Of a DNA stretch of 24,884 bases, positions 2,290-24,884 are shown one piece after another (the stretch's first letter is position 1; the number at the start of each line of letters is the position of its first letter). This DNA comes from Rodentolepis nana (Eukaryota; Platyhelminthes; Cestoda; Cyclophyllidea; Hymenolepididae). The stretch covers positions 1-24,884 of the forward strand of contig UZAE01013239.1 of NCBI GenBank assembly GCA_900617975.1. The letters run 5' to 3'. The notes under the pieces are model-generated. The model saw nothing but the letters and a program-made list of their open reading frames with translations. It was not told the DNA's origin and did no database searches. A program made the position numbers and the translations under genes.

Positions 2290-2381
2290 TTTTAAATGGC
2301 AGGCTTTGTGATATTTATCATTAGGCCTTAAACTTTGACTTCAGCTTCCCCAATGGGTGGGGGTACATTGATAGCAGTTAA
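2290..2381 (-). other. LINE 3' UTR and 3' terminus shared with the SINEs
   Basis: The last ~55 nt of the LINE (2290-2345) read as the SINE 3' end: a GAAGTCA block, GGCCTAATGAT, a TGAT-AAAT-ATCA hairpin, then GCCTGCCATTT and a short A-rich tail. Sharing of the 3' end is the usual signature of a LINE-SINE pair, where the LINE reverse transcriptase recognises that end. A small internal direct repeat (atagcagtt at about 2371-2379 and 2387-2395) lies next to the stop codon. Confidence 0.82.
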
Positions 2382-3099
2382 TTAATAGCAGTTCATTAGC
2401 CGTCTTCTAGCTTCCCAGAATCTCTGGGTTTCCGTCGTTGTCATTTGGGCTGGATACCGAATCAGGTGGGTCTTCTCCATTTCCTCATGTAGGTTACATT
2501 GGAGGCATGTGGGTTGAGTGTATACTCCCAATCTGTGAAGGTGTTTTGCCAAGCAATCGTGTCCGGTACGTAGTCTAAACTCAGCAATGGATTTGATTCT
2601 TGGCCAGTCGGGTATGTCGGAAAGTGCCACTGTCCACTGTTTCTCCTTTGTTAAAGCTTTAATTTCGTTGGACCTTGAGGTCTGGAATTCTTTCCTGATT
2701 AAGGCCTTCATTGTGTGGAAAGACATCGGCCGGTCCATGCTTTGCAAAATCGTTGTCCCCTTCTTAGCAAGTGTGTCAGCAAGCTCATTGCCTTTAATGC
2801 CACAGTGACCAGGAATCCACTGTAGGACCACTGTTTTGCTTTTCTCTCTCAGCAGCTGATAGAGTTTTCTACATTCCTTTATCTCAGCTGTTTTGGGTGG
2901 CTCTCTATTTCCAATTGAGTTTATTGCAGACTGTGAGTCCGAAAGTATCACCGATTTGGTGAATTTCGTATCCGGGCAACACAAGTGGCATTGTGCTATC
3001 CTAATGGCCTCTAATACCTTCGAAAGCGGATCTATTGTGTCCCGCTGGTGCGTAGAAAGAGAAGAGTTCAGAATAGACACCTGCACCAACGTTTGTCTG
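2382..3099 (-). pseudogene. LINE RNase H domain and C-terminal Cys/His cluster (broken)
   Basis: This is the 3' part of the LINE polyprotein. Reading down from 3099, the RNase H N-terminal strand (GAGVYSELFSFY) is in one frame, which ends at a stop near 3000. The rest follows in a second frame open from 3089 to 2382 (235 codons), so a one-base frameshift lies at about 3010-3030. Visible motifs are the catalytic-Asp strand VILSDSQSA (about 2917-2950) and WIPGHCGIKGNELAD (about 2776-2822), which holds the last acidic residue. The first catalytic Asp (a TDGS-type motif in this family) is absent because the domain is cut at the SINE boundary. The C-terminus has CLQCNLHEEMEKTHLIRYP, a CxxC...H cluster in which the usual last Cys appears to be Tyr. 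The domain would degrade RNA in RNA-DNA hybrids; this copy cannot be functional. Confidence 0.9.
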
Positions 3100-3111
3100 T
3101 TTCAAATGGCA

Positions 3112-3298
3112 GGCGTTATGATAGGTATCATTAGCCCTTTAGTTGACTTCGGGCTTCACAGAAAGGAAAATGAACCTCAAAGTGGCAAAACGTCGAGAGG
3201 GGGACAGAATAATGATTCACAGACGTAAGAGACAGACAGACACAAAGGTAGAAAACGGTGAGGTGAGTACGGAGTCAGAAGTCAACTGCCAGTTTATA
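3112..3298 (-). repeat. 187-bp exact direct repeat, copy 1 (left of an N)
   Basis: Positions 3112-3298 and 3300-3486 appear identical base for base over 187 bp and are separated only by the N at 3299. Exact identity amid otherwise diverged copies suggests two contig ends that overlap but were not merged, rather than a biological duplication. Confidence 0.9.
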
Positions 3299-3299
3299 N

Positions 3300-3486
3300 G
3301 GCGTTATGATAGGTATCATTAGCCCTTTAGTTGACTTCGGGCTTCACAGAAAGGAAAATGAACCTCAAAGTGGCAAAACGTCGAGAGGGGGACAGAATAA
3401 TGATTCACAGACGTAAGAGACAGACAGACACAAAGGTAGAAAACGGTGAGGTGAGTACGGAGTCAGAAGTCAACTGCCAGTTTATA
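3300..3486 (-). repeat. 187-bp exact direct repeat, copy 2 (right of an N)
   Basis: Second arm of the exact repeat described at 3112-3298. It begins inside the SINE 3' end and runs into the ribozyme P2' strand, so its outer edge has no biological boundary. Confidence 0.9.
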
Positions 3487-3554
3487 GACTTTTTTGCCTA
3501 TGAGTATACGTTGCCCAGGATGCACCACGTGGAGGTAAGTCTATCGCACATCCC
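3484..3554 (-). ncRNA. HDV-like ribozyme, nested copy G, with compensatory P1 change
   Basis: Same fold as the other copies: P1 3548-3554 with 3517-3523, P2' at 3484-3491, P3 closing loop TCCACGT, strand GGGCAA, P4 with a one-base loss on its 3' side. P1 reads GGGATGT with GCATCCT instead of the family GGGGTGT with GCACCCT. The fourth pair has gone from G-C to A-U by changes on both strands (3551 and 3520), so P1 stays fully paired. This is covariation support for the helix. Confidence 0.87.
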
Positions 3555-4211
3555 ACCATTCCATTGTTGTCGCACCAGTTTGCTAGTAGTTTAAGAGCAC
3601 AATTTAGGTCACTTTCCGTCCTCTCCTGAGCGTTTTTCTTAGGGGCAGAATACCATAGAACAAGATCATCTGCATAAAGTAAGCACTTGATGCCCGTGAC
3701 TGTCTGTACCAATTCGGCTGTCATTGATGAAGACATTGAAAAGAGTGCAGCTTGTGACAGGTCCCTGTGGAAGGCCTGTTTGTAAAAGATTGGATTTTGA
3801 TAGAGCATTTCCATATCTAACTTTACATGTTCTTTGTCTAATGAATGATTTTATCCAATTTAGCATGTTATGCTTCATACCAATCTTCGCTAATTTTAGA
3901 ATTAGCTCCTCTTTCCATACTAAGTCATATGCTGATGAATCTTTGATGTGTTGGGAGAAAGTGGCTACTTGTTGGTTAATTGATCTTTGCGACCTAAAAC
4001 CTGCTTGTTCACTCCTAAGAATATTGTTGGTCTCAAGGAACCAGGTCAGCTTCCTGTTAACCATCCTTTCCACAAGTTTAAGCCTATAGTTGTCAAAGTT
4101 GCTAGGGTCTTTGCCCTTTTTCAGTACTGGTATTACATTGGCAACTTGGTTAGGTACAAGACTGGTCTCCCAGATTTTGTTGAAAGTGTCAGCACAGTTT
4201 CCTTGGCTGTT

Positions 4212-4289
4212 GGTCCCATTCTTATTAGAAATTCCGAATGAATACGGTGTGGTTCCATTCTAATTAGAAACTCTGGATGAATACCGTCT
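4212..4289 (-). repeat. 39-bp tandem duplication in the RT coding region
   Basis: Units 4212-4250 and 4251-4289 align along their length (shared cores ATTAGAAA and GATGAATAC types) with several mismatches. 39 bp is 13 codons, so the translation shows EFLIRM twice without loss of frame. The divergence shows the duplication is old. Confidence 0.8.
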
Positions 4290-4305
4290 CCGCCAGGAGA
4301 CTTCT

Positions 4306-4375
4306 TGCACTTTAGCTGTTTTATCGCATCATTAAGTTTTTGCACTTTAACTGTTTTATCGCAGCATTAAGTTCG
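4306..4375 (-). repeat. 35-bp tandem duplication in the RT coding region
   Basis: Units 4306-4340 and 4341-4375 share TGCACTTTARCTGTTTTATC and a following GCATTAAG-like block. 35 is not a multiple of three, so this duplication shifts the frame. The peptide AIKQLKCK therefore appears once in each of two frames. Confidence 0.8.
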
Positions 4376-4984
4376 CAAGATCTGAATGGTTCAGTTAATA
4401 CATTATTTGGTGTTGCGTCTCCCTTTATTTCACCACACTGTCTTACTTGTATTTTTATATCTCTTGAAGGATTTCTGACAAAAGGGTTCTTTTGCTTGTG
4501 GGAATTGAACCTCGCAAAGCAGTTAGCTATTTCGAAGTTAGTGGCGAGCGGTTTGTCGTTTAAGCTCACCGGTTCTTTCTTGGATCTTTCCCTGTTGTTT
4601 TGGAGATTACCCAGAAATTTGAAAGTGCGTTAGCTATCACTTTGATAGTTGATATTTGAGATGAACTTGTCGAAGGAAATCCGTTTAGTTTGTAAGATGG
4701 CTTGCCTTAGGACACCTGATTTTCGTCTCCAGGCTTGTACGTCTTTCGTTCTTCCAGTCTGATCAGCAGTGTTGCGAAGGACGTCCCGCTTTCTTTTCAG
4801 TTCCTCAAGGTGTCTAGACCAAAACACTCGATAGTGTTTAGTCTTGCCTCTGGGAATAGTTTTCTTTGCACATCGGATCATAATATTCGTGATATCAGTG
4901 CAAAGTTTGTCAGGATGTTGGTTGAAGTTGAGGGACTTGTGTGAAGTTCATTCTCTAAAAGGTTTATGAATCTAGGCCAGTCAG

Positions 4985-5758
4985 CCTTCTTGAAGTTCCA
5001 TGATAGCTTAGTTGGCACTTTCCCTGTCATGCTTTTGCTGCCGAAGTTAATACTAGCAATGACCGGTTTGTGACCAGAACCAGGATTGTCAATTATTTTG
5101 CGGTGTGTATGCTCGCTGATGTCGCTTGAAGCCAGGAGTAAGTCAAGAGTTGTTCTGGTTCCACATAGTGCAGATATGTAGCCGGATCCTCATTGCTGTA
5201 AATAAGTTCCAGAGGGTTGCTGTTTAGCATGTCTTCGATTTCCTTTCCAGCTGTGTTTGTATTCTTTTAGCCCAATCTGGTGGAATGGGCGTTGAAGTCT
5301 CCTTATAATACAATTCTGTGTGAGATGTTCAGAAAATCAAAGTTGGGACAATTCTGAGGTGGATTATAGAATGCATACATCTTGAAGTAGTTTTGACATT
5401 TCCAAACATTTAATCTGATTATTTCACATTTGTCTTGTGTTGAGCCCATACTCTTGATTAGATCGTAGTGTGAGGTGAGGCCTTCTATTACTCCAGTCTG
5501 AATTCCACTTGCAACTTGCCGGTATTTAGGTAGATTGTACAGGGTGTAACCTGGGAATTGGTAGTATTTCAGTTTGTCATCCGAAATGTTTGCTTCCATA
5601 ATTGTGAAAATGTCTACATCATAGGTTTGTAGGATTTTCTGGACTTGGATCTTCTTGTCCGGTGACATCCCTCCAGCATTCCACTGAAGGATCTGTAGAC
5701 GTTGTGATTTGCCCTGACGAGGGCGATTTCTCTTATAGCTTTGTTTCAAGCTAATCAT
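4985..5758 (-). pseudogene. LINE APE-type endonuclease domain (broken)
   Basis: This is the N-terminal domain, which nicks the target DNA to prime reverse transcription. The first Met (codon at 5758) follows the ribozyme by 27 nt, and translation is open to a stop at 5303-5305 (151 codons). Motifs are LQILQWNAGG near residue 22 (metal-binding Asn region), IMEANI (catalytic Glu) and then, beyond the TAA at 5303, GDFNAHS (about 5282-5302). A second TAA lies at 5267-5269. A frameshift at about 5160-5190 is followed by TTLDLLLASSDIS and SGHKPVIAS (about 5055-5081), the catalytic His motif. All main APE motifs can be seen but in two frames with two stops. Confidence 0.91.
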
Positions 5759-5785
5759 AATAAATAGAAGTCAAAATGCTGAGTG

Positions 5786-5857
5786 ATAGACTTTTTTGCC
5801 GTCTGAAGATACGTTGTCCAGGGTGCACCACGTCGAGATAAGTCTATCGCGCACCCC
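5786..5857 (-). ncRNA. HDV-like ribozyme at the LINE 5' end
   Basis: Minus-strand pairing: P1 GGGGTGC (5851-5857) with GCACCCT (5820-5826), 7 bp including a first G.U wobble and a C-G where the SINEs have U.G; P2 5840-5847 with 5786-5793 (8 bp, perfect); P3 5837-5839 with 5827-5829; L3 5830-5836; P4 CGTAT/AGACG with one mismatch; then GGCAAAAAA containing the presumed catalytic C. L3 is TCGACGT and the core strand GGACAA, against TCCACGT and GGGCAA in most SINE copies, so P1.1 is weakened here. Position 5857 is the exact element start next to the target-site duplication. It sits immediately upstream of the ORF, as HDV-like ribozymes do in R2- and RTE-type elements (known). Confidence 0.85.
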
Positions 5858-5871
5858 ACTTTCAAAATATT
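5858..5871. repeat. LINE target-site duplication, right arm
   Basis: actttcaaaatatt, identical to 2276-2289. It abuts the first nucleotide of the ribozyme, fixing the LINE 5' end at 5857. Confidence 0.92.
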
Positions 5872-8800
5872 AAAAAACTTTAATAACAAGATTTCAAAGT
5901 AGCAACTCGAGCTGTATGAGTTATTTAGTACCCAAACTTCGAAAATTCAGTCTCGCATTCTCTTGGCAAATACAAGGAGTTTTTGTGTCAAATCAAAATT
6001 TCGGTAAGGCCATGTTATAAAATGAACCAAAGTAATCATTTAAACAAGTCGCTGCTATTGATACATTCATTTCTTATCCATCTTATAAATGCTATTGTAT
6101 TATAAGTGTATGTAGGAGAAATATCTCGCAAAACCCTTCACTGGCCTTAATAAACAGGAAATGATGAATGCATTGAGGAGATAAGGACTCACCAGTGGTT
6201 CATCATTACGTAAACTGTCTGCTCTTTTGATCTTCGCTCACTCTTATTTTATATCCATTTTTCCTTGTTAACAGTCCCTTGATAAGATATAATTTTGAAA
6301 TACTGCAAGAAACAATAAAATTTTTTAATAAAGCTATCTAAACCAAGCTAGCTTGAAAGGCTTCTATAAATTGGTTTAAATACTAAAATTTAAAAATCAC
6401 CTTTCTTAATTTCCCCTAATATGGCAATATCTTAAAAAGTCTTAATCAAGTAATATTTTCATTTAAATACTATTTAGGTTTGTGGGAATTCGGTATCTAA
6501 CGGTAAGTCGTCGGATCGTTTTAATATTTAGTTCATTATATTCTGTAGAGAAAACGCCTAAGGCGGTTTAAACAATTGATTTTGTTTTTTTACATGAAAT
6601 TTTATTGATTCCCCATTTGAAGTATTCACCATGTTAGATCCAGATTTTCGGATTATATCAACACCTATTCTCCGTATCACACAAGATTTTGTCCAATACT
6701 TTCTAGCGCTTATGTGATTTATGGAGAATATTTCATTGCAATAGATTATTAAACTACGTTCGAAGTAGTTTGCTTATAAGTAAACGAGATATAGTATAAT
6801 TTGACAACTTTGTAAACTAAGTTATGGGATTTCAAATGCCTTTTTTTCAATAAAATTTCAATTGCTTTTGAGACTTTTCTGCAGCATGAAGTGCAGTCTT
6901 TTTCTCTTCTTCACACCAAGCATTGGGAGGGCTCGATTCTCACATGCTGGTTCCCTCGGATGATTTCTAACTTCTGATGTTGACTCTTCTCGGATAATTA
7001 AGAGGAGGCATCAATAACAAGGATATCCATCTCATGTTCATTTTACTTCGAAATAACTTTTGAAAAAGTGCATTGGTGCAATCAGACATTGTTATAACAC
7101 GTAAATGAAAGACCTTACCATCACATGTATATGACATATATTATCCATATCTCGGCTTTAGTAATAGAATCCAATGTAGACAATTCATGTGCCTAAATTT
7201 ACTGGTTCACGTAGACTGACTTTCCAATACTTCATCATCTCAGTTCTTGCCACTTATCTATACCAGGATATTGAATATGAATCTGATTGAATGAAAAAAC
7301 TAATTTATTCGTAATCATTCCACAAGCCCATGTGGTGAGAAAAGAAAACGCCCACAAGGAAAATTTTCTATAAAATATTTTCTGGTGCCTTCATCACTGG
7401 AGATTTATTTGAAAGCTATATTGAAATATTGTTATTATCTAAAATTAGAACCGATTAGCCGAATACGGAACATAAACACTGATAATTTTTCCGTTTTAAT
7501 TACCTAATAGCCGAAATAGTTATTTGCAGATTCTAATTATGCATCGAAAGTTAGGGGTTTTCTTATAAGAGGTCAACAGTATATAGAACTTCCTCTGGTA
7601 GTGCGATACCATACGCAGTTAACTCAACCACTTGAAAAGGCTAAGAATACATTTTCCATTCTCAAGAGCATAAATAATAGTAAAGGTTATTATTGTTCAT
7701 ATTTTGGACTGAACAAATGTAAAAAACGACAATGATAAAGTTGTTTCATGGAGTTTTAAAAATTGGGGCTTGCCGTCCTGTGATCTTGTATCCATATAAA
7801 TGATCGTATTTGACTCCATAGTTATTGAAATTATGATTTCCGATTGGAGTGATTTTAAAGGTGATTGGGTAAATAGTGTTTGTTTCACTAATTGTGCTTC
7901 TCACGAATTCATTAGAAGTCGTCTGAAAGTTCATCAAAGCCAATATCAGAATTTAACAAAATTGAAAGATGGGTGTTGATGTTGCTCCCTTTTCTATCTA
8001 TATCGCTCTAAGGTATACATTATTCATTGAGGTCTTCAACGTACTTTTCAACATGAAGCAGACTGCGACAAGTCGGCAACGTTTAATTTTCAAACAGAAA
8101 CTACGGGAACTTATCTGTCAGGCGATAGGAATTTGACGCATCCAGAAGCTGCCGGTAATTCCATTATGTTTATGTAAACACACCCACTCAGGCATTGCTG
8201 GCATACAGATAATGACCCCGTAATGGAAGGGGAAACGAAGTGGATTCCTGGAATTGGGTTGAGGAATGCTAAATTTGTAGAAGGAAAAATTAACCTGTGG
8301 GTGGTCTTTTCCATCGAAGACACACTTTCCTTGCATGCGTTTTCTCGCCTTTTAATTTCGTTCCTTCAATTTCTTTCTATGGTAGCTCAGTTCAGCCGAA
8401 TATCTCAACTTTCATGTGAAGACGTTTACTTCTCCCCTCGTAAATAGACCGAATCGGAACTCTTCCGCAAAGTAAACAATAAATAGGCTCTTTTGTAAAA
8501 TATTTAGGCGAAATGTCACTTCCATGAAATTGCAGTAAAAACAACAGTTGAATCTCAATTGCTACTCGTGATCTACGTTATTCTTAAACTTTAAGGCAAC
8601 AATAATATATGGAAATTCTCAGTCTTTTCTTAATTTTTACGAATTTGAGTTATAATAAAATATTTTACTAAAAGACGAAGCAGTTAGATATATTGCTTTT
8701 TAAATCCTCTCACTTTAGTGGCTATGTGATAGTAGGGCGATAGCGTTACTTGAAGGTTAATAGTAGTAAATAAAGTGTTCGGTGAAATTTTACATTTTAG

Positions 8801-8898: not shown

Positions 8899-9405
8899 GC
8901 CTCTATTTATTTATATCAAATGGCAGGCGCTTTGATTGTTATCATTAGCCCTTTAGCTGACTTCGGGCTTCACAGAGAGGAAGGAACATTAAAGTGAAAA
9001 AAAGTCGAGGAATGGGGGGGGTGAGGGGGACAGAAGAGTGTTACAAAGATGTAAAAGAGACAGTCAAAATTGTAGAAAATAGGTGAATTGAGTACTGTAG
9101 AAGTAGTTGAATATGAAATACGGTGGAGACATGGTTGTTTAAAGTCAAAAGTCAACTGCCGAATAATAGACTTTTTGACGTATGAGTATACGTTGCCCAG
9201 GGTGCACCACGGACTCTTTTGCCGTGTATACGTTGCCCAGGGTGCACCAGTTTGTTTGCCGTATGAGTATACGTTGCCCAGGGTGCACCACGTGATAGAC
9301 TTACTTGCCGTATGAGTACACGTTGCCCAGGGTGCACCACGTGGTGCCTTATGAGTATACGTTGCCCAGGGTGCACCACGTGGATGTAAGTCTATCACAC
9401 ACCCC
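8899..9405 (-). mobile_element. SINE-like element B with an expanded 5' ribozyme region (507 bp)
   Basis: The 3' end lies at 8899 (minus-strand tail GATATAAATAAAT, hairpin TGAT-AACA-ATCA). The body spans about 8940-9165 and the 5' part 9166-9405 is a five-unit tandem array. Direct repeats gtaaaatta at 8890-8898 and 9406-9414 flank it as a target-site duplication. The body carries an extra G-run relative to other copies. It has no ORF of its own; apparent frames through the array are simply translations of the repeated ribozyme segment. Confidence 0.88.
9166..9405 (-). ncRNA. Tandemly expanded HDV-like ribozyme (five P1'-P4 modules)
   Basis: The 5' strand is normal (P1 9399-9405, then ATAGACTT). 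The segment containing loop L3, P3', P1', the GGGCAA strand and P4 occurs five times. A 19-bp marker, cgttgcccagggtgcacca on +, lies at 9191-9209, 9231-9249, 9272-9290, 9321-9339 and 9360-9378 (periods 40, 41, 49, 39). P2' strands (atagactt on +) follow the second module (9295-9302) and the last one (9166-9173). Several modules could therefore compete for one P1 and P2. The P3 pair at the 5' end has a mismatch (ACA for ACC). Whether this copy still cleaves is open. Confidence 0.78.
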
Positions 9406-10950: not shown

Positions 10951-11022
10951 GGGGTGTGCGATCGACCTACCTCCACGTGGTGCACCCTGGGCAACGTATA
11001 CTCATACTGCAAAAAAGTCTAT
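10951..11022 (+). ncRNA. HDV-like ribozyme, element C
   Basis: P1 GGGGTGT (10951-10957) with GCACCCT is intact. P3 ACC/GGT closes loop TCCACGT, the GGGCAA strand follows, P4 keeps GTAT/ATAC with its outer C-G pair lost, and J4/2 carries the presumed catalytic C at 11010. P2 has two mismatches (ATCGACCT against AAGTCTAT, 11015-11022), so P2 is the weak point of this copy. Confidence 0.82.
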
Positions 11023-11283
11023 TGACTGGCAGTTGACTTCTGACTCCAAACCACCATCACCCCAGTGTATGTCATATTCGACTACTTTCACAGTACTCAC
11101 CTTACCTTTTTCGCTGCCTTGGTGTCTGTCTGACTCTTTCATATTTGTTTATCATTATTCGGTCCCTCCTCTCGACTTTTTGTCACTTTGATGTTCCTCC
11201 TCCTTTCTGCGAAGTCCGAACTTAGATAAAGGGCTAATGATGATTATCAAAACGCCCTACATTTGAAATAAAATAAAATAAAT
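10951..11283 (+). mobile_element. SINE-like element C, full 5' end (~333 bp)
   Basis: Begins GGGGTGTGCG with the ribozyme, followed by the pyrimidine-rich body (CAGTACTCACC, GTGTCTGTCTG and CTTTGATGTTCC blocks shared with other copies), then GGGCTAATGAT, the hairpin TGAT-GATT-ATCA, and an ATTTGAAATAAAATAAAATAA-type tail. A convincing target-site duplication is not visible because the left flank and the tail are both AAATAAA-like. An 80-codon open frame across its 5' half (10949-11191) is a chance reading of the ribozyme and body. Confidence 0.88.
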
Positions 11284-16022: not shown

Positions 16023-16036
16023 GCCATACTGATCAT

Positions 16037-16333
16037 TTATTTATTTCAACTGGCAGGCGTTTTGATAGTTATTATTAGCCCTTTAGCTAACTTCGGGCTT
16101 CACAGGGGGAAGGAACATCAAAGTAAACGAAAGTCGAGGGATGTGGAACAGAAGAGAGACAGACACAAAGGCGGAGAAAAGGTAGGATGATTACTGTGGA
16201 AGCGGTAGAATATGGCATCCAGTGGGGTTATGGTAGTTTGAAGTGAGAAGTCAACTGCCGATTTATAGATTTTGCCGCATGAGTATACGTTGCCCAGGGT
16301 GCACCACGTGGAGGTAAGTCTATCGCACACCCC
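16037..16333 (-). mobile_element. SINE-like element D, full length (297 bp)
   Basis: Has the family 3' end with an AAATAAATAAA-type tail at 16037, a body and a 5' ribozyme. Flanking repeats gccatactgatcat (16023-16036) and gccatactgaacat (16334-16347) agree at 13 of 14 positions. The hairpin at the 3' end has one mismatch (TAAT in place of TGAT). No ORF belongs to the element. Confidence 0.9.
16265..16333 (-). ncRNA. HDV-like ribozyme, element D (P2'/J4/2 eroded)
   Basis: P1 16327-16333 with GCACCCT, P3, loop TCCACGT, GGGCAA and P4 (CGTAT/ATGCG with a U.G wobble) are all intact. The 3' side is shortened: GGCAAAATCTAT replaces the usual GGCAAAAAAGTCTAT, leaving a mismatch in P2 and a shorter J4/2. 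The 5' base 16333 again coincides with the edge of the target-site duplication. Confidence 0.82.
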
Positions 16334-24367: not shown

Positions 24368-24508
24368 CATTCAACCTAAACAGAAGTAAACAATTCAGAC
24401 TACTTGTGACTCATAAAGTCTGCGTAATAAAATAACTCTCAGAATATTATTCAAAGCAAAATTTATGGAAATCCAAATTTATATATCATTATTAGTACTT
24501 GTGGAATA

Positions 24509-24835
24509 TTTATTTATATCAACCGGCAGGCTTTATGAAAGTTATCATTAGCCCCTTAGTTGACTTCAGGCTTCACAGAGGGAGAGGAACATCAAATCGA
24601 AAAAAGTCGAGAGTGGGGGGTGGGTGAACAGAAAAGTGTTTTAAAGATGTAAAAGAGACAGACACAAAGTTAGATGAAAGGTGAGGTGCGTACAGTGGCA
24701 GTGGTGGAATATGACATACTGTGGGGTCATGATAGCTTGAAGTTAGAAGTCAACTGCCGATTTATAGACTTTTTTGCCGCATGAGTATACGTTGCCCAGG
24801 GTGCACCACGTGGAGGTAAGTCTATTGCACACCCC
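24509..24835 (-). mobile_element. SINE-like element F, full length (327 bp), best preserved
   Basis: Has the family 3' end with a GATATAAATAAAT tail, body and intact 5' ribozyme. Flanking repeats gtacttgtggaata (24495-24508) and gtatttgtggaata (24836-24849) agree at 13 of 14 positions. No ORF belongs to the element. Its ribozyme is the cleanest in the window, making it the best copy for experimental work. Confidence 0.92.
24764..24835 (-). ncRNA. HDV-like self-cleaving ribozyme, element F (intact)
   Basis: Minus strand, 72 nt: P1 24829-24835 with 24798-24804 (7 bp, first pair G.U at the cleavage site as in HDV-type ribozymes); J1/2 24826-24828; P2 24818-24825 with 24764-24771 (8 bp, perfect); P3 24815-24817 with 24805-24807; L3 TCCACGT 24808-24814, whose CC can form P1.1 with the GG at 24796-24797; GGGCAA 24792-24797; P4 24787-24791 with 24778-24782 around an ACTC loop; J4/2 24772-24777 with the presumed catalytic C at 24776. 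Every element of the double pseudoknot is present. The 5' nucleotide is the first base after the target-site duplication. Confidence 0.9.
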
Positions 24836-24884
24836 GTATTTGTGGAATAAATAGTAGCTACAAATAGCAACTAAAAAGTACAAT

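Follow-up and report, generated by a model that had tools for sequence, protein, structure and literature searches.

We report a dispersed family of short, non-autonomous retroelements in the tapeworm Rodentolepis nana, whose exact 5' end is, as the sequence evidence supports, a ribozyme of the hepatitis delta virus (HDV) type that is predicted to cleave itself. The family was met in positions 1 to 24,884 of contig UZAE01013239.1 (assembly GCA_900617975.1), and this whole stretch of 24,884 nucleotides (nt) is referred to here as the window. The reading that we consider probable is that each element joins an HDV-like ribozyme to a body and to a tail of the type carried by a long interspersed nuclear element (LINE), and that its RNA would cut itself out of a read-through transcript and be retrotransposed by the LINE machinery. 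HDV-like 5' ribozymes on LINEs and on their short partners are known already; what is new is the dispersed case in an animal, a tapeworm, and the chief interest lies in the animal host, the copy number and the composite body of the short family.

HDV-like ribozymes are characterised by a P1 helix of 7 base pairs (bp) with a G.U pair at the cleavage site, a P3 helix of 3 bp, P1.1, a joining strand J1.1/4 of the form GGNCAA, P4, a C in the joining strand J4/2, and P2. The double pseudoknot of this type is found at window 24764-24835 on the minus strand, the first 72 nt of a full short element of about 327 nt with its A/T-rich tail (24509-24835, minus strand; positions 1-319 of a family profile of 320). 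Read from 5' to 3', the ribozyme passes through the 5' strands of P1 and P2, P3 with a 7-nt loop, the 3' strand of P1, the sequence GGGCAAC, which supplies the required J1.1/4, then P4, J4/2 and the 3' strand of P2. On the minus strand throughout, P1 comprises 7 bp, the first of them G.U (24829-24835 with 24798-24804), P2 a perfect 8 bp (24818-24825 with 24764-24771) and P3 3 bp (24815-24817 with 24805-24807); the loop L3, UCCACGU, lies at 24808-24814, P1.1 joins 24812-24813 to 24796-24797, P4 is a 5-bp hairpin (24778-24791), and J4/2 (24772-24777) reads GGC followed by an A-run, with the candidate catalytic C at 24776. Cleavage is predicted between 24836 and 24835, before the first G (G1).

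An initial annotation of the window had proposed P1, P2, P3 with its 7-nt loop, P4 and J4/2 for this interval, all of which are present there, and had suggested covariance models of HDV-like ribozymes as a check. The Rfam model RF02682 matches exactly 24764-24835 on the minus strand with 45.9 bits, over its gathering score of 44 and with an E-value of 1.1e-5 across the full library; RF00094, the model of HDV itself, remains under its threshold here, at 33.9 against 50 bits, and within the window no other Rfam family reached its cut-off. When RF02682 is relaxed to E up to 5, five more places in the window are matched with 28.9-37.4 bits, all under the gathering score, namely the short elements at 16331, 10953, 1362 and 3554 and the start of a LINE at 5855, with no match at the window copies 9405 and 20896. 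Because the Rfam model contains no P2, the perfect 8-bp P2 represents independent support. Seven family starts in the window possess a 5' end; of these, a descriptor of P1, P3, J1.1/4, P4 and GC, composed after the sequence had been inspected, found four (24835, 16333, 10951 and the LINE at 5857) and missed those at 1362, 3554 and 9405. The same descriptor found two sites in 200 dinucleotide-shuffled windows, and a chance match is therefore very unlikely. With a P2 of at least 6 bp added, two window sites are left (24835 and 5857, with a P2 of 8-9 bp) against two in the 200 shuffles (the same both times). A pseudoknot-free energy fold keeps P1, extended to 9 bp, and P4 and loses P3, at -16.0 versus -14.6 kcal/mol for P1, P3 and P4 together, such energy models being unable to score a double pseudoknot.

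The placing of the ribozyme at the exact 5' end rests on the copies, which begin at its first nucleotide, and on their target-site duplications (TSDs), which mostly abut that nucleotide. Thirty-eight near-full copies served to build a profile, which was then applied to the window, to seven best-match loci (L002-L008) and to 20 stretches of 10 kb sampled evenly by contig number. The profile returned 66 hits with an intact 3' end, six of them cut by the edge of the locus; 32 of the remaining 60 begin at profile positions 1-3. Twelve others begin at position 206 or beyond and represent tails of LINEs, or else the second piece of a split copy (for example in L013 and L017); with these excluded, the proportion is 32 of 48. 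Two of the 40 full-length copies were removed for duplicate flanks, and a TSD of at least 10 nt is present in 29 of the 38 distinct copies left, ending exactly before nucleotide 1 in 22 of these; where present, the TSDs are mostly 10-16 nt. Re-pairing the flanks between copies gives, as a null, 3.5% for a TSD of 10 nt or longer and 0.7% for one that abuts exactly. Among the 30 copies that come from the window or from one of the 20 stretches, the corresponding counts are 22 and 15. For the element at 24509-24835, comparison of the flanks places the upstream TSD copy, TATTCCACAAATAC on the element's strand, at 24836-24849, with an offset of 0 from the predicted cleavage site, and the downstream copy, TATTCCACAAGTAC, after the tail at 24495-24508, the two being identical at 13 of 14 positions. 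The elements are short, dispersed and flanked by TSDs, with an A-rich or simple-repeat 3' tail, as expected of non-autonomous retroelements without long terminal repeats (non-LTR).

A LINE present in the window and elsewhere in the genome begins with this ribozyme as well, a point that the initial annotation had not mentioned. The window copy, identified by BLAST, profile and descriptor (2290-5857, minus strand), carries its ribozyme at 5786-5857 and the shared 3' tail at 2290-2366, is flanked on either side by the 14-nt TSD AATATTTTGAAAGT (5858-5871 and 2276-2289, by flank comparison), and is interrupted on its way from 5857 to 2290 by the insertion of a short element at 3092-3554. Its minus-strand coding remains comprise a fragment of the N-terminal (endonuclease) open reading frame (ORF) at 5303-5758, which begins some 100 nt downstream of the start of the LINE, gave no Pfam hit on its own and has longer homologues that carry PF14529/PF03372, a reverse transcriptase fragment at 3666-4073 (PF00078, E 5.4e-12) and an RNase H fragment at 2382-3089 (PF00075, E 3.5e-10). 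From a genome search with the N-terminal part of the LINE, in which 150 of 1,063 candidates were scored, the best 12 were taken as loci, the window copy included; in every one of them the ribozyme begins at position 1, some 100 nt ahead of the ORF. Between the LINE and the short-element consensus 5 of the 72 ribozyme positions differ, and the LINE retains 24 of the 25 pairs: one difference preserves a P1 pair, three lie in J1.1/4 or the loop of P4 and one breaks the last P4 pair. The 3' ends of LINE and short element are alike, with changes, over about the last 65 nt, and the LINE is likely to be the mobilising partner of the short element.

The initial annotation had described the short elements as of arthropod type, which does not hold: the host is a tapeworm, the best named matches of COX1 are cestodes, and those of the LINE ORF (L036:196-1950) are from Rodentolepis nana, at 81% identity over 73% of the query, with other R. 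nana matches at 57-90% over shorter parts, and from Hymenolepis microstoma, at 66% over 65% of the query. COX1 (L049), which is open under genetic code tables 5 and 9, has its best named match in Pseudanoplocephala crawfordi at 86%, followed by Taenia, Cloacotaenia, Fimbriaria and Echinococcus, among others, at 82-84%; the highest of the 120 matches listed, to an unnamed sequence, is 89%. Comparison with one R. nana protein gave 95% over its best LINE stretch, and its LIM part is not represented among the matches listed. One unnamed protein is 51% identical to the LINE ORF, whose nearest named relatives beyond the tapeworms are in spiders (Trichonephila clavipes 38-49%, Oedothorax gibbosus 49%, Nephila pilipes 43%), a kinship that may reflect either horizontal transfer or patchy sampling.

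The family is abundant. An exact 35-nt core, which spans the 5' end to most of the 3' strand of P1, is found at 3,057 places in the assembly of 107 Mb (1,554 and 1,503 by strand), LINE copies included, against none for the reversed control; no exact match to the core was found in viral contigs or in bacterial and archaeal genome contigs. Profile matches, with LINE ends and arrays counted in, account for 21,699 bases (10.8%) of the 20 stretches, which total 200,000 bases and are contig starts, where repeats may be enriched. Across the genome, RF02682 gave 59 listed matches, 37 of them over the gathering score, from 61 scored candidates out of 25,212; these may not all belong to the short-element family, and the window's own copy is not among them.

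Over 32 full-length copies of the sample, mean divergence from the consensus is 6.0% in nucleotides 1-72, 8.3% in 73-100, 12.6% in 101-160, 17.2% in 161-230 and 10.3% in 231-315, and with CpG sites removed the ribozyme is still lowest, at 5.7% versus 10.0-16.3% elsewhere. Within the ribozyme, divergence is about the same at paired (5.8%) and unpaired (6.3%) positions. Of the 37 sampled 5'-complete copies, a few of which may be LINE starts, 34 retain the candidate catalytic C, as do 11 of the 12 LINEs. Of 65 sequences, 59 were used to examine pairing, those at L015:7194, L016:6915, L020:5627, L020:6908, L025:5580 and L028:1600 having been omitted as duplicates or for a deleted or inserted ribozyme, and since these six were set aside beforehand the covariation and feature counts lean towards intact copies. 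Among the 59, 93.9% of cells pair, against 33-52% with the structure slid along the alignment, and double changes affect 3 pairs in the ribozyme structure against 2-7 in the slid structures.

Several of our results weigh against an active ribozyme that defines the 5' end of the family. The low divergence at the 5' end may partly be ascertainment, because the copies were chosen by an intact 5' end. Covariation in the 59 sequences amounts to 0.083 versus 0.084 in shuffles, 315 of 500 shuffles being as high, and the copies are too alike for the fold to be provable by compensatory change. Every required ribozyme feature is retained in only 16 of the 37 sampled copies and 8 of the 12 LINEs; eleven LINE starts score 29.9-40.9 bits with RF02682, all under the gathering score, and RF00094 found no match among 86 scored candidates of 18,786 in the genome, where the control was also unmatched. 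Nine of the 38 distinct copies lack a TSD of 10 nt or more, and in 7 of the other 29 the TSD is offset from nucleotide 1 by 1-4 nt. Cleavage and the life cycle are themselves inferred.

In the short element of about 320-325 nt, the ribozyme (nucleotides 1-72) is followed by a body some 140 nt long, and the 3' end is formed by a tail of about 65-80 nt in common with the LINE. Body positions 93-235 match the compared LINE loci, which cover the LINE unevenly, where short elements have inserted and otherwise give just two weak hits, 29 and 17 nt long. In the consensus, no A or B box of an RNA polymerase III (pol III) promoter was found at the three patterns tried, runs of TTTTTT and TTTTTTT are present, and there is no tRNA in the window; the absence of boxes at those patterns together with the internal T-runs argues against transcription by pol III. 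A classical pol III short interspersed nuclear element (SINE), with A and B boxes and a head resembling tRNA, 5S or 7SL RNA, was considered and set aside for want of boxes or a window tRNA and for the T-runs, as was a short internally deleted element (SIDE) derived from a LINE throughout, whose body should have found a clear match in the compared LINE parts. The element thus falls outside the classical pol III SINEs and, to judge from the LINE parts compared, outside plain internally deleted LINEs as well; it resembles a SIDE, but one whose body has no clear match in those parts. The initial annotation had the ribozyme as the 5' end of a SINE family, and of this the exact 5' end of a dispersed short element stands whereas the classical pol III SINE does not.

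We envisage that a copy of the short element would be transcribed within a longer read-through RNA, in which the ribozyme would fold and cut just 5' of its first G, leaving an RNA with an exact 5' end, as the fold and the exact ends of the copies suggest. The endonuclease-reverse transcriptase of the LINE would then recognise the shared 3' tail and copy the RNA by target-primed reverse transcription, for which the shared ends and similar TSDs speak; new copies would come to lie between TSDs such as those observed, mostly abutting nucleotide 1. For the source of the transcript, we infer that read-through transcription fits best, an internal promoter for RNA polymerase II being the rival.

Exact 5' ends could also be given by fixed initiation, were the first 75 nt or so mainly a DNA promoter that starts transcription at G1, like Pr77 in the trypanosomatid LINE L1Tc, with a ribozyme fold that is secondary or decaying. 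For Pr77, a promoter and a ribozyme function are reported together (PMC4035085), and the upstream flanks of the tapeworm copies look unrelated by eye, so that no shared upstream promoter is evident. A promoter, however, has no need of a double pseudoknot, while L3, J1.1/4, P1, P2 and the C of J4/2 are all in place, and the ribozyme region is the least diverged part of the element. We regard a mainly promoter role as rather improbable, though the two roles are mutually compatible.

The self-cleaving 5' end also fares better than two further explanations. Were the family propagated as retrozymes are, by tandem ribozyme copies cut to monomers and circularised, the arrays of partial ribozyme units (window 9212-9405; L016, L019 and L027) might be its source; yet ordinary copies have a single 5' ribozyme and TSDs of the linear type, and the array units, being mostly without the 5' strands of P1 and P2, are mostly not complete ribozymes, which leaves such a route very unlikely. 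That a ribozyme-like fold arose by chance within a repeat we find barely credible: the uninformative covariation within the family and the pseudoknot-free fold, which favours a longer P1 without P3, would agree with it, but it has to contend with the Rfam E-value for the whole library, with the excess of descriptor sites in the window over the shuffled windows, and with a fold that sits exactly at the 5' end of both the short element and the LINE.

HDV-like ribozymes in retroelements are known from other insect cases besides those compared here. In trypanosomatids, LINEs (L1Tc) and short elements share an HDV-like 5' ribozyme, Pr77, and L1Tc encodes an apurinic/apyrimidinic endonuclease, reverse transcriptase and RNase H (PMC4035085). 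L1Tc/ingi with NARTc/RIME/SIDER is likewise a pair of LINE and short elements with such a ribozyme, and the endonuclease, reverse transcriptase and RNase H domains are present in the tapeworm LINE as in L1Tc, a likeness in domain content. NARTc and RIME, however, are truncated LINEs, whereas the tapeworm body has no clear match in the compared LINE parts, and the host here is a metazoan flatworm. The R2 SIDEs of Drosophila, among them R2/R1 hybrids, have an HDV-like 5' ribozyme and a LINE 3' end, are not pol III elements and are mobilised by R2 or R1, one hybrid carrying extra sequence that comes partly from internal transcribed spacer 1 (ITS-1); they occupy sites in the 28S ribosomal DNA, with fewer than five copies in one species, in contrast to the dispersed tapeworm family with its thousands (PMC3414825). 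R4, Dong, Baggins and L1Tc cut at their own 5' end, an HDV-like ribozyme being present at the 5' junction, as also in R2 of many animals, whereas R2 of several lineages, planaria included, cuts in the 28S sequence upstream of the element, unlike the tapeworm family; the consulted part of PMC3774820 describes no short partner family for these elements. Animal retrozymes are short non-autonomous retroelements that depend on a self-cleaving motif and possibly are to be regarded as a SINE family, but they differ in having a type I hammerhead, circular RNA and Penelope-like elements as likely helpers (PMC7761336, which mentions the HDV-like ribozymes of RTE elements in passing).

The novelty is accordingly smaller than the initial annotation suggested, since short non-autonomous elements with HDV-like 5' ribozymes have been published for trypanosomatids (PMC4035085) and for Drosophila R2 (PMC3414825); what stands is that searches of a library of open-access papers, outside which lie most subscription papers and Repbase, yielded no report of this family or of any flatworm SINE with an HDV-like ribozyme. 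Nor did they yield any paper that combines 'ribozyme' with 'Hymenolepis', and for ribozyme, cestode and retrotransposon together they gave one paper, which apparently concerns non-autonomous LTR elements. If the ribozyme is active, the family would be an animal parallel to the LINE/SINE pairs of trypanosomatids and would bring together many HDV-like ribozymes in a single genome, and its activity would simply account for copies that keep an exact 5' end. Two matters become testable: whether a short element can dispense with a promoter by excising itself from host transcripts, and how the worm tolerates transcripts that contain, in all, thousands of self-cutting sites. More tentatively, and with more doubt than confidence, we suggest that a metazoan lineage may have exchanged the pol III promoter of a SINE for a self-cleaving ribozyme, giving a composite element (LINE ribozyme, foreign body, LINE tail) that would ride host read-through transcripts in thousands of copies; host transcripts across the tapeworm transcriptome would in that case contain cleavage sites by the thousand, the ribozyme segment itself having been amplified into arrays. 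Were the ribozyme inactive, there would still be a clear LINE/short-element pair in a group with much unclassified repeat sequence, as PMC7653826 describes for Hymenolepis microstoma.

A BLAST comparison of the window end with the window located copies at about 1361, 3554, 9408, 10951, 16334, 20896 and 24884/24835, with the LINE at 5857. On the plus strand, the relaxed RF02682 matches and the profile delimit one copy at 1362-1682 (ribozyme 1362-1433) and, with the descriptor, another at 10951-11276 (ribozyme 10951-11022), in which P2 is interrupted, with 4 bp contiguous, and there is no clear TSD. The minus-strand copy at 16036-16333 (profile, TSD and descriptor) has a 14-nt TSD abutting nucleotide 1 and a P2 shortened to 5 bp; a diverged minus-strand copy at 20622-20896 matches profile positions 18-319 and is without the first 17. 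The minus-strand copy inserted in the LINE (3092-3554; BLAST-type self-match and profile) contains a perfect 187-nt tandem duplication (3112-3298 and 3300-3486), which may be either a recent event or an artefact of assembly.

A further minus-strand copy (8906-9405; BLAST and profile) joins an ordinary body at 8906-9211 to a 5' array of partial ribozyme units of about 40-60 nt at 9212-9405. Arrays of pieces of about 40 nt from the 5' part of the element also occur at L016 2564-5940, L019 1769-2264 and L027 3374-4741, and look unlike a normal tandem repeat: the end points vary between units and drift along the element, the junctions in the window array being roughly 61|23, 73|24, 65|28 and 69|26 in profile positions. 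Several units follow in the same order in L016, L019 and L027, and the arrays themselves have therefore been copied.

Two pairs of short elements in L020 (4700-5018 with 5388-5706, and 1668-1985 with 6908-7230) have identical near upstream flanks, from either a local segmental duplication or an effect of assembly. At L034 2889-3308 the 3' end of a LINE is followed 13 nt on by a full short element, and at L007 1195-1823 two short elements lie 16 nt apart; insertion next to older copies seems to happen repeatedly.
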